64,000 nucleotides of DNA. Origin: Pedobacter cryophilus. Its GTDB lineage: Bacteria; Bacteroidota; Bacteroidia; Sphingobacteriales; Sphingobacteriaceae. A program made the position numbers and the translations under genes. Shown in pieces: positions 1,098-25,737 of the stretch. The notes beneath the pieces are model-generated. The model did no database searches. It worked only from the letters and a program-made list of their open reading frames with translations, and was not told the origin of the DNA. Within the stretch, counting starts at the first letter, position 1; each line of letters starts with the position of its first letter. The stretch lies in the NCBI RefSeq assembly GCF_005116455.1, contig NZ_SWBP01000003.1, positions 12 to 64,011 of the forward strand. Direction: 5' to 3'.

Positions 1098-1650
1098 AAA
1101 CCGAAGCCGTGGGAACGGCAGTGAATTAACAAAGTTTATGCAACCCTCGTCGGTTTGCTGAGGGCACTGCTTTAGGTAAGTTTCTGCAAAAGATTTATTG
1201 GTCTTCCTTTCCAAATTTTCAAAGGCCATCCTTGCTTTGTTGCTCTGCATAACAGCTTTGCAAAGGCAAGATCTAAATAGGAATAGTGAATTTCAAAATT
1301 AGCCTTAGAAGTAGCCAGACAAACCAAAGTACACCAAATCATTCCGCCTTGGCGCTTGCGGTTGTGATGAAGAAATATTCGCAGAAACTTTGTAGCAATC
1401 GGCGTAGCGGTGGCTTTTTTGAATACTTTTTCAGCTAAAGAAAAAAGTATTTGCCATCCCGGCGGCATGAGCCGGCGAGATTATGAATTGAAATACTATT
1501 GTTCAATTAAAACTTAAATGGCCTTTTCCCACAAGGCTTTCCAGCCCTCATTGGCGGGCTAAGCCTAGTCACTTTTTTCTTGATAAAAAAGTAACCAAAA
1601 AATCAAGGCTGATGAATATTTGATCAGTAAGCCTCAATAAATCTTAAAGC

Positions 1651-22506: not shown

Positions 22507-22992
22507 TTAATAGGCCACGGTATGTTGTTCTCCATGGAAAAGATTTCTAATATATACTTCGTTTATGGCGGTTGCGCAAAGTATGCCCTCGGCATCAAAT
22601 AAGTCTATTTTATAAGTTTTTATGAATTTTCCTATTTTTATTAAAGCAACTTCAGCTTCGGCAATATCTTCATCACTGATCTCAATTTTGAAGTAAAGAT
22701 TGCCTCTACCGGGTTTTAAATATTGAATGCTGGCACTTTTTAGCCATACTCTACTTTTAAAACCTCGTAAGCTTAAAACTTGATCAAATAATATGGCATA
22801 AAATGGATCGGTAGCGCTAAAAATTGTTCCACCAAAAATAGATTTGTTGAAATTGATGTTTAAAATGCTTTTGTTGATTTTAACTTCTACAGTTTTAAAA
22901 TCGGTTCCAAATTTAACCACCCAAATTCTTTGAAAAAATAAAGGAGGATAAAATCTTAATGCCCATTTAAGGGTTTTAGCAGAAACATTCAT
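22507..22992 (-). CDS. DUF4442 protein, hotdog-fold thioesterase-like
   Basis: This 161-aa protein matches the DUF4442 branch of hotdog thioesterase-like proteins. It starts 'KTLKWALRFYPPLFFQRIWVV', then has 'NKSIFGGTIFSATDPFYAILF' about 49-70, the helix that in relatives lines the acyl-CoA site. The substrate is unknown. It is the first gene of the six-gene minus-strand run. Confidence 0.85.
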   Translation of the reverse strand: MNVSAKTLKWALRFYPPLFFQRIWVVKFGTDFKTVEVKINKSILNINFNKSIFGGTIFSATDPFYAILFDQVLSLRGFKSRVWLKSASIQYLKPGRGNLYFKIEISDEDIAEAEVALIKIGKFIKTYKIDLFDAEGILCATAINEVYIRNLFHGEQHTVAY

Positions 22993-23111
22993 GTTAGGCT
23001 AAATATCCTAATTAATAAGCTTAAGAAAAAACAATTTATGATAAATGACGAAATATTGAAGAGGGAATAGATTGTTTAGGATTGGAATGGGGGATAAATA
23101 CTAAATACAAC

Positions 23112-23146
23112 AAAACAAAAACGGAACCAGTATAAACCGATTCCGT
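23112..23146 (-). terminator. Intrinsic terminator of small RNA candidate B
   Basis: On the minus strand, an 11-bp stem (plus 23136-23146 with 23121-23131, two G-U pairs, loop UUAU) is followed by UUUUUGUUUUG. Its sequence closely matches the terminator at 23361. Confidence 0.85.
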
Positions 23147-23233
23147 TTGATGTAGTTTTTATACATTTTAACATGTATTATTATCTACAATCTCACTTGC
23201 TGTAATAATGGAATTACTTCCTTCTTGCAGTAG
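23112..23233 (-). ncRNA. Small RNA candidate B (~120 nt)
   Basis: No frame of note is present. On the minus strand a TATATTTG box is followed about 7 nt later by an 80-nt body beginning 'CTACTGCAAGAAGGAAG' and ending in an ATACAT/ATGTAT hairpin. An intrinsic terminator closes the unit. The body is homologous to the two bodies in candidate A. It shares 'GCAAGAA', 'CAGCAAGTGAGA', 'GTAGA' and 'AAACTAC'. A separate promoter box, body and terminator suggest an independent trans-acting RNA. No known RNA family is recognised. Confidence 0.65.
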
Positions 23234-23239
23234 CTGATA

Positions 23240-23247
23240 CAAATATA
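23240..23247 (-). promoter_or_regulatory. Bacteroidota -7 promoter box for small RNA B
   Basis: TATATTTG on the minus strand fits the TAnnTTTG consensus. No clear -33 TTTG was found at the usual spacing. Confidence 0.55.
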
Positions 23248-23360
23248 AGGCTAATTTAAAGCCTGTATATAGGATTGTAATCAGCTTTACTCATGATTCT
23301 GGTTTTCTATTATATCCTAAAAATTTATAGAATTTGTAATTAAAAAAAGCTGTTTAAAAC

Positions 23361-23390
23361 AAAAAACGGAACCAGTCTAACTGATTCCGT
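23361..23390 (-). terminator. Intrinsic terminator of small RNA candidate A
   Basis: On the minus strand ACGGAATCAGT pairs with ACTGGTTCCGT (11 bp, one G-U), then TTTTTTGTTTT. Confidence 0.88.
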
Positions 23391-23563
23391 TTTGATTGTA
23401 GTTTAATGAACTTTTACATTCATTATATTCTACTCATCTCACTCACTGCTATCTTTCATTTCTTCCTTGCGGTAGTTTTTTAAAGTAGTATTGTGAACTT
23501 TTACGTCCAGTATCATCTACTTATCTAACTCGCTGCAATCGTAGAAACGCTTTCTTGCGGTGG
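23361..23563 (-). ncRNA. Small RNA candidate A (~200 nt, two tandem bodies)
   Basis: The minus-strand transcript predicted from the TATATTTG box at 23570 runs through two homologous ~80-nt bodies. Body A1 (about 23565-23485) begins 'ACCGCAAGAAAGCG' and A2 (about 23475-23395) begins 'ACCGCAAGGAAGAAA'. The transcript ends in one intrinsic terminator. Each body has a short hairpin near its 3' end with loop GTAAAA: TGGAC/GTTCA in A1 and AATGAA/TTCATT in A2. The stem changes on both sides while still pairing. It lies downstream of the alcohol dehydrogenase gene but has its own promoter box. Confidence 0.65.
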
Positions 23564-23569
23564 TTACAA

Positions 23570-23577
23570 CAAATATA
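23570..23577 (-). promoter_or_regulatory. Bacteroidota -7 promoter box for small RNA A
   Basis: TATATTTG on the minus strand is identical to the box ahead of candidate B. In both cases GCAAGAA starts about 16 nt downstream of the box. Confidence 0.55.
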
Positions 23578-23648
23578 CGTTCAGCAAAGGTGTGTAGAAG
23601 CTAAGCATAATCAAACTCACAAATGATTGTCATCATCTAATATATAAA

Positions 23649-24809
23649 TTACCACATTTTAGCTAAAATCTCTTCATATTCTTTTTCTCCTAACGGATAA
23701 ACAGAGCCGGTTACTTTATTCAGTTTAAAATTAGAGATGATCTTTTCCTGATCATTTATATGAATATCAGCCTGGTTTAAACGTATTGGAGTTTCAATTT
23801 GGGTGAAAAATGCTTCTAATTGAGTAATAAAAATATTTGCTGCTAAAACTTCATCAGTTTCTTGTATTTCAAAAACATGTTTTGCTAAAAAAGCCAGTTT
23901 AGCATTTATTTGAGGTTGATGTTGTTTTAACCAAGCCGGATAAACAATAGATAAACCTGCACCATGCGGAATATCATATAATACACTTAAAGTATGTTCT
24001 AAACCATGTACGCCCCAATCTCCCGAATTTTTTCCGGCTTTTAAAGTTCCGTTTAAAGCATTAGTAGCCAGCCACATAATTTGAGAGCGGTATTCAAAAT
24101 TCTCAGGATCTTTCCTAATTTTTAAACCATAATCAATAGCCAGTTTAATAACAGATGCAGTATACAAATCTGATAAAGGCGCATCACCTTTTCCAAAAAA
24201 TTGCTCTAAGGAATGAGAAATTAAATCGGCAACACCATAAGCCGTATAATTAAGCGGAACAGTTTGCGTAAAAGTAGGATCCAAAAAAGAAACTTTAGGA
24301 AACAAACAAGGGGCGCTATATCCTTTCTTCATTCCAGAAACCGTGTCTTGCAGTACCGTTGCCGAGTTCATTTCAGTACCAGTTGCAGCAAGGGTCAAAA
24401 TATTTAAGAGCGGAAGTGCTTTTGTTGGTCGGGGTGCTTTTTGTAAATAAAAATCCCAAACAGAATGATCAGCGTAAAAGCCCATTGCAACAGCTTTGGC
24501 GGTATCAATTACAGATCCCCCACCAATAGCCACAATTAAATCTACCTTATTTTCTTTGGCTAATTCAATAGCTTCTTCTGCATCCTGGTAAAGTGGATTA
24601 GATTTTACACCTTCAAAAGTTACATGTTCTAAGCCACTAATGTTCATTAAAGAAAGCACCCTCGCGTACAAACCACTTTTTTTAACAGAACCTTGTCCTA
24701 TAATAATAATGCATTTTTTACCATATACACTAGCCTCTGTACAAAGTTGATCTATTACATCTTTACCAAATAAAATTTTAGTCGGATTATAGTATTGAAA
24801 ATTTTCCAT
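23649..24809 (-). CDS. Iron-containing alcohol dehydrogenase (butanol dehydrogenase-like)
   Basis: A group III metal-dependent alcohol dehydrogenase, NAD(P)H-dependent, probably reducing aldehydes. The 386-aa protein has the nucleotide-binding 'IGGGSVIDTAKAVAM' near residues 95-110. Metal ligands are seen in 'GVADLISHSLEQFF' (Asp and His) and 'WGVHGLEHTLSVLYDIPHGAGL' (His residues). I chose the second ATG (MENFQYYNPT) because it matches the family N-terminus; an ATG two codons upstream (24815) is possible. It is monocistronic. Downstream lie the small RNA candidates. Confidence 0.93.
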   Translation of the reverse strand: MENFQYYNPTKILFGKDVIDQLCTEASVYGKKCIIIIGQGSVKKSGLYARVLSLMNISGLEHVTFEGVKSNPLYQDAEEAIELAKENKVDLIVAIGGGSVIDTAKAVAMGFYADHSVWDFYLQKAPRPTKALPLLNILTLAATGTEMNSATVLQDTVSGMKKGYSAPCLFPKVSFLDPTFTQTVPLNYTAYGVADLISHSLEQFFGKGDAPLSDLYTASVIKLAIDYGLKIRKDPENFEYRSQIMWLATNALNGTLKAGKNSGDWGVHGLEHTLSVLYDIPHGAGLSIVYPAWLKQHQPQINAKLAFLAKHVFEIQETDEVLAANIFITQLEAFFTQIETPIRLNQADIHINDQEKIISNFKLNKVTGSVYPLGEKEYEEILAKMW

Positions 24810-24815
24810 CAACAT

Positions 24816-25143: not shown

Positions 25144-25737
25144 ATGAAAAAAAATTTCTTAAAATCTTTTGCAGTAGTTGCAATTTTAGGTTTAACTCTT
25201 ACTGCTTGTAACTCTAACAAACAAGCTGAAGCTGATGCAGATTCTATGGCTGTAGATAGCATGTCAATGGTTGATTCAGCTGCTACTGAAGAAGGCGTAT
25301 TGGTTGGTGGAGCCATGATGGTTACATCAAAAAATATTGTTGAAAACGCATTAGGATCTGCAGATCATACTACTTTAGTTGCTGCCGTAAAAGCCGCTGA
25401 TTTAGTAGAAACTTTAAGTGGAACAGGTCCATTCACAGTTTTTGCACCAACCAACGAAGCTTTCACTGCATTACCAGCCGGAACGGTTGATAATTTATTG
25501 AAGCCAGAAATGAAAGGCGATTTAGCTAAAGTATTAACTTACCATGTAGTAGCTGGAGCTGTTAAAGCTGCAGATTTGCAAGACGGTATGGAATTAACAA
25601 CTGTACAAGGTGGAAAGCTTAAAGTAACCATTAAAGACGGTGTAGTAATGATTAACAATGCAAAAGTAACCATCGCAGATGCAGTATCTAGCAATGGTGT
25701 AACTCACGTTATTGATGCAGTGTTATTACCAAAATAG
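25144..25737 (+). CDS. Fasciclin (FAS1) domain lipoprotein
   Basis: The 197-aa precursor has a lipobox TAC with the lipidated Cys at residue 22, then an acidic, Met/Ser-rich linker (about 25-60). One FAS1 domain follows: 'NIVENALGSADHTTLVAAVKAADLVETLSGTGPFTVFAPTNEAF' and the conserved 'LTYHVVAGAV' H2 box. FAS1 lipoproteins are surface or periplasmic adhesion-type proteins. It is a single gene with a terminator at 25766. Confidence 0.95.
   Translation: MKKNFLKSFAVVAILGLTLTACNSNKQAEADADSMAVDSMSMVDSAATEEGVLVGGAMMVTSKNIVENALGSADHTTLVAAVKAADLVETLSGTGPFTVFAPTNEAFTALPAGTVDNLLKPEMKGDLAKVLTYHVVAGAVKAADLQDGMELTTVQGGKLKVTIKDGVVMINNAKVTIADAVSSNGVTHVIDAVLLPK

Follow-up and report, generated by a model that had tools for sequence, protein, structure and literature searches.

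The 64,000-nucleotide stretch of Pedobacter cryophilus DNA analysed here, referred to as the window, contains a 656-bp gap between two minus-strand genes, an iron-containing alcohol dehydrogenase (Fe-ADH) gene upstream (23649..24815) and a DUF4442 gene downstream (22507..22992). Two tandem small RNA genes had been predicted in this gap, which raised the question of whether the repeated sequences found there are genes for small RNAs (sRNAs) and, if so, how they may be controlled, how widely they are distributed and how they may act.

Organization of the gap and its two units

Minus-strand positions 23645-23119 hold two units. In each, an upstream block and a TATATTTG box lead into at least one homologous body, and an intrinsic terminator follows. 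In unit 1 the block (23608..23645) is followed by the box (23570..23577), two bodies, b1 (23481..23564) and b2 (23394..23477, with no TAnnTTTG box of its own), and terminator 1 (23363..23393). In unit 2 the block (23278..23315), recognized by its match to unit 1, is followed by the box (23240..23247), a single body, b3 (23148..23235), and terminator 2 (23119..23148). The bodies were delimited by alignment and consensus fold and the terminators by a terminator scan, terminator 2 also by alignment with terminator 1. Both boxes lie where they had been predicted, and alignment bore out the claim that a homologous body stands behind each, with two bodies in the first predicted transcript. The boxes are 330 bp apart, as are the sites upstream of them.

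The -7 box of the phylum is placed at -12 to -5 in the available text of a published study (PMC9723704), and the predicted starts are therefore 23565, one base ahead of b1, and 23235, the first base of aligned b3. The TATATTTG box alone is ordinary, since it occurs four times in the window against 7.5 expected by chance, with two of the four being the unit boxes. Apart from the unit boxes, neither strand of the gap contains a TAnnTTTG box. The type of box, together with a Flavo-1 RNA elsewhere in the window, points to Bacteroidota as the phylum. A TTG-type element 17-23 nt before the box is usual; no TTG was read at that distance before either unit box. Transcription of both units from these starts would give an RNA 1 of approximately 205 nt with two modules and an RNA 2 of approximately 118 nt with one.

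Three terminator-like sites were found in 22990-23650, where 0.2 were expected in shuffles, and two of them are the unit terminators. Their stems match almost letter for letter and run into T-runs; the predicted near-identity of sequence was upheld, whereas the predicted stem length of 11 bp was not, as the stems have 14 and 13 pairs. The stems (window 23102-23149 and 23346-23393, minus strand) resemble each other much more closely than do the bodies that precede them, which could reflect gene conversion or strong constraint. By sequence, each unit has the features of an independent sRNA gene, namely its own promoter-like box, an intrinsic terminator and no conserved coding frame. Because box, body and terminator recur twice in the same register, and because the changes between the copies preserve structure and surpass shuffles by most measures (see below), the reading of the locus as small RNA genes is supported.

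The units lie on the same strand as the DUF4442 gene, and terminator 2 ends approximately 127 nt ahead of its ATG, which would suit a cis-acting leader, that is, a tandem riboswitch or attenuator for that gene. Each of the two units, however, has a separate box and terminator, and no Rfam riboswitch reached threshold here. The DUF4442 gene also has a box-like sequence directly before its ATG (GATATTTA at this locus), and GATATTT[A/G] was present at that position in 12 of 13 genus loci, this one included, with GACCTTTG in the thirteenth. Since this box-like sequence is conserved, the units are probably not a leader of the DUF4442 gene. The Fe-ADH gene lay within 1.5 kb upstream in four of the 13 genus DUF4442 loci, again including this one; in the other three (L018, L019 and L024) the gap measured 85, 87 and 368 bp, respectively, and none of the bodies was visible in it. 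These three relatives share the flanking genes but have no cassette in the gap, which implies that the cassette originated, was acquired or was lost at this position; its absence also tells against a leader, a reading we regard as highly improbable. In the L019 gap, the opposite strand matched the core motif once with two mismatches, but without the rest of the cassette, and this match was set aside.

Homology and fold of the three bodies

The three bodies share 60/83, 56/83 and 57/83 aligned positions in pairwise comparison, and their local alignment scores of 73, 47 and 54 exceeded the highest among 2000 dinucleotide shuffles each (37, 40 and 40). The RNAalifold consensus of the three bodies comprises three helices: a 5' helix (ACYGC with GYG-A-GU), an outer 3' helix (GUAG with CUAC), and an inner hairpin, enclosed by the latter, with up to 6 pairs and a loop of GUAAAA or GUUAAA. 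The arms and loops of the hairpin are as originally quoted; the 5' helix and the GUAG/CUAC helix had both been overlooked.

Compensatory change had been claimed for the hairpin and was confirmed among the three paralogues, with three of its six pairs changed on both sides; the consensus fold of the bodies outdid all 1000 column shuffles, which keep gaps and conservation class. Across the whole body, both-side changes affected 5 of 17 consensus pairs (reached by 6/500 shuffles), and the share of paired cells was uncommon too (1/500), although the number of further pair types was not unusual (98/500). Versions of the fold slid along the alignment had at most one pair changed on both sides. With the two 3' helices taken alone, four pairs were changed on both sides (35/500 shuffles), and the paired-cell share was reached by 7/500. 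Because no convincing homologue was found, this covariation rests on three paralogous copies, in which the fold is kept by paired substitutions.

Consensus stability gave z = -5.8 for the whole body and z = -10.3 for the 3' module, neither of which was reached by any of 1000 column shuffles, whereas the 5' half with its helix was not significant when taken alone (152/1000). Single-sequence z values were -1.9, -3.7 and -2.5 for the 3' modules and -0.2, -2.0 and -1.5 for the whole bodies. Of the lowest-energy folds, only that of b1 by itself contained the 5' helix; those of b2 and b3 by themselves and of both full transcripts lacked it. From the shuffle significance and the lowest-energy folds together, the modelled 3' module is firm and the 5' helix tentative.

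The statement that no coding frame fits is true insofar as neither strand has a frame that persists in each of the three copies. Opposite b2, a plus-strand frame of 25 codons (23406-23483) would encode a hydrophobic peptide, which raised the idea of a type I toxin-antitoxin pair in which the minus-strand RNA silences that peptide. The matching frame, however, stops after 11 codons opposite b1 and after 10 opposite b3, the gap has no TAnnTTTG box on its plus strand, and such frames would arise easily from pyrimidine-rich strands; we consider this explanation scarcely credible. The original remark that no known RNA family was recognized also held, with all Rfam scores here under threshold: no Rfam 15 family reached its gathering score, and the best match (L20 leader, 23.5 bits against a cut-off of 58.7) had its printed pairs in the terminator.

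The upstream block and its candidate regulator site

A block located 31-68 nt before each box is shared by the two units and had escaped the original prediction. The best 38-nt stretch is identical at 26/38 positions in register, a value reached by none of 5000 shuffles, and the whole 73 nt upstream has 31 identities (7/5000 shuffles), while the 30 nt adjoining the box match at only 5/30. When the upstream regions were aligned locally without a fixed register, the result was less striking, with 34/2000 shuffles doing as well. Within the block, AATCAT-N9-TGATTA (23608-23628 in unit 1 and 23278-23298 in unit 2), centred approximately at -53 from the predicted start, is possibly a shared site for a regulator. 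In the window, AATCA-N10-TGATT occurs twice, both times at the units, and 6/100 shuffles gave at least two occurrences.

The combination of site and box was found at three places in the genome itself, the two units and one other, which was taken for chance and has no downstream open reading frame (ORF) from ATG. Among 60 genomes, the combined pattern occurred at 20 places in 16 genomes, compared to 2 for a control pattern, with two of the 20 being the unit sites. The other 18 were not accepted as a regulon; several seemed to lie inside genes when judged by eye and by the first downstream ATG. A search of the genome itself for the site with 2 mismatches found no regulon signal (36 matches, and 36 for the control). 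Three of the other 18 places carry a longer motif, part of which the unit sites lack. In these three (L094, L097 and L104, approximately 1501-1558 in each), which come from a genus-mate, a member of the same family and a relative at class level only, AATCA-N10-TGATTRGYNTCAT opens a 58-nt stretch that closes in a TAnnTTTG box. The genes that follow were read as encoding a D-lactate dehydrogenase (L104), an alpha/beta hydrolase (L097) and a cytochrome c-like protein (L094). This stretch may contain a CRP/FNR-type site, of which the unit sites share the first part only. A similar AATCA-N10-TGATT with a box precedes a gene read as pyruvate kinase in two genus members (L101 and L103, approximately 1501-1565). 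As a separate observation, a 12-codon minus-strand frame that starts from an ATG at about 23294 (window 23250-23300) ends, by eye, just before the unit 2 box.

Distribution and possible function of the RNAs

A covariance search of related genomes with the three bodies had been proposed, and it yielded no convincing homologue with paired substitutions in samples of the genus, family or phylum. In the genome itself, the model found the three copies at 90 bits or above and its next match at 20.5 bits. The best match in 17 other genomes of the genus scored 28.8 bits and those in two family samples (151 and 399 genomes, this one included) 29.1 and 31.2 bits outside the locus, none of them convincing; in a phylum sample of 395 genomes, also including this one, there was no other match at E 0.01. 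The samples overlap, and stricter filters applied in runs over more than 40 genomes. A scan of 84,980 species with an exact pattern gave three hits, none with the unit layout; on inspection by eye, all lay within genes or at their ends. Viral contigs gave 0 matches in both of two scans; the genome itself and its nearest kin may be left out of both collections. No record covered 80% of the query among the 35 phage records (20 listed, E 0.1-0.5) or the three plasmid records (E 0.1-0.4). Among 60 genomes, this one included, DNA-similarity matches in 12 others (22-67 nt, E 1e-4 to 6e-3) were scanned for the core motif and not counted as homologues. No convincing relative of the modules was found in any genome searched, and diverged ones could be missed, as they can escape both an exact pattern and a three-sequence covariance model.

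Sixteen covariance-model near-matches of 20-31 bits (L032-L035, L038-L040, L044-L049, L055, L056 and L180) were read by eye with their flanks. None had box, body and terminator together, and on this reading they were taken for chance matches. Several were read as coding sequence (ORF listings covered L055 and L180 only), and those of L040 and L180 both marked the beginning of one related gene. Closest in appearance was L055, from the same genus (27.0 bits, E 0.086 for one genome). It came with neither a terminator-like site nor, in the 400 nt upstream, a TAnnTTTG box and was left out; it may be remotely related or have matched by chance. The L055 stretch (1501-1582, minus strand) is non-coding, has a GUAAAA hairpin inside a second stem and lies upstream of a run of ribosomal-protein-like genes, for which it may be a leader RNA.

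The gap without the cassette in three relatives would also fit a DNA element instead of an RNA, whether a decayed repeat, a mobile-element remnant or an operator array. Yet the locus is single-copy in its genome, which leaves the decayed repeat, named at the outset as a possible refutation, unsupported, and neither pair-preserving changes nor T-run terminators would be expected of such an element, so that we find it very unlikely. The best reading of the sibling sRNAs is one of recent origin or arrival, and the most fitting description of the locus is a new family of tandem sibling sRNAs. Regulatory sRNAs as such are common, but this family looks new and confined to its lineage. The searched literature, as far as its text was available, held no description of these RNAs. 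If transcribed, they would make up an sRNA family that is structured, has undergone duplication and seems to be co-regulated, with no counterpart in the relatives searched, and would provide a case for the birth, duplication and divergence of a regulatory RNA within one lineage. They would moreover draw attention to a regulator site and, perhaps, to a new RNA-binding partner in Bacteroidota.

Our preferred reading, held with evenly balanced confidence, is that the locus comprises two tandem co-regulated sRNA genes of a lineage-restricted family whose products act in trans as sibling antisense sRNAs. A regulator would bind AATCAT-N9-TGATTA approximately 53 bp upstream of each start and act on both promoters, and RNAs of about 205 nt (two modules) and about 118 nt (one module) would be made. 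Less surely, these might act in trans by base pairing, with the conserved 5' end (CYACYGCAAG(A/G)A) and the exposed loops as contacts. The pairing would fall close to the start codons of mRNAs that encode exported proteins, with a LemA-family lipoprotein and the fasciclin lipoprotein at 25144 as candidates. Among 658 genes sampled from approximately 864 kb, about one fifth of the genome, the LemA-family start region had the best joint pairing with the three 5' segments. This gene was already known as a one-mismatch hit ahead of the sampled test, and 3/120 joint permutations did as well; its mRNA is a weak candidate target. The fasciclin mRNA ranked second for b3. Start-region hits of the b2 5' end exceeded 39/40 shuffles, and the b1 5' end beat 40/40 on mean energy difference; for each measure, the other five of the six segments showed no excess or unusual value in the sampled genes. 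Complements of the seed were not enriched in the genome (130, compared to 224 for a control pattern). Taken together, the target tests came out largely negative, and the antisense targets are candidates.

This weak target prediction is one of several points in favour of the main rival, in which the RNAs are sponges and each module is bound by an RNA-binding protein. In Gac/Rsm-type circuits, repeated modules and an upstream regulator site set the dose, and the sponges proposed here would work likewise with another protein. The hairpin stems vary while the GURAAA loop and several internal-loop letters stay, and a protein-binding RNA would account at least equally well for loops that are conserved along the entire body. 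Two modules share one predicted transcript, and the upstream site is common to both units at one fixed distance. The sponge RNAs CsrB and RsmZ have repeated hairpin modules, an intrinsic terminator, a palindromic upstream activating site and GGA in their loops. The present locus resembles them in the first three features and differs in its loops, which are GUAAAA or GUUAAA. As GGA is the motif of CsrA sites and is lacking from the hairpin loop, a sponge would need a protein other than CsrA; GGA does occur elsewhere in b2 and b3, but not in GCAAGAAAG of b1. No RRM_1 match was found in the genome, and on balance we think a sponge rather unlikely. More doubtful still is its fullest form, a Gac/Rsm-like circuit invented independently in Bacteroidota, in which an activator at the upstream site drives tandem sponges that titrate a non-CsrA protein binding GURAAA loops, with an RNA family younger than the genus.

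For sibling antisense sRNAs, the LhrC family of Listeria offers a parallel, with its tandem layout and lipoprotein targets. It comprises LhrC1-5, Rli22 and Rli33-1 (PMC9973317; PMC7509114), homologous sRNAs in multiple copies that, by the portions of these papers available, have an additive effect. In Rfam, the only contact with LhrC was rli22; it lay on the opposite strand, in the stretch that separates the units, and scored 16.1 bits where the cut-off is 80. The adjacent sRNA genes NgncR_162/163 of Neisseria, whose products bind Hfq, form three stem-loops and are 78% identical (PMC9973317, text available in part), also resemble each other in sequence and fold, a parallel drawn by description only. 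Within Bacteroidota, FopS/GibS of Bacteroides thetaiotaomicron is a set of 14 paralogous sRNAs of approximately 65-70 nt that are bound by the RRM protein RbpB, have sigma-A-type promoters and use a common 5' part as seed (PMC11697453, in the text available). The likeness, again by description only, is that of multicopy paralogous sRNAs with such promoters and, as predicted here, a common 5' seed; unlike that 14-member family, the present one has three modules in tandem in a genome with no RRM_1 match. The search for an RbpB-type RRM (PF00076), which gave no match here, found one in 2 of 14 control genomes, one of them a Bacteroides. Rfp18 of Flavobacterium psychrophilum is another structured sRNA of the phylum, described in the accessible part of its report as independent, affecting mRNAs and conserved in its genus (PMC9723704). 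The comparison, made from that description, differs in that the present modules were not found in the genus-mates searched.

Two other RNAs were recognized elsewhere in the window. One is a SAM riboswitch (RF00162, 48501-48598, minus strand, 71.8 bits), and the other is a Flavo-1 RNA (RF01705, 55301-55379, plus strand, 56 bits), a family listed for Bacteroidetes in the available text of PMC2864571.
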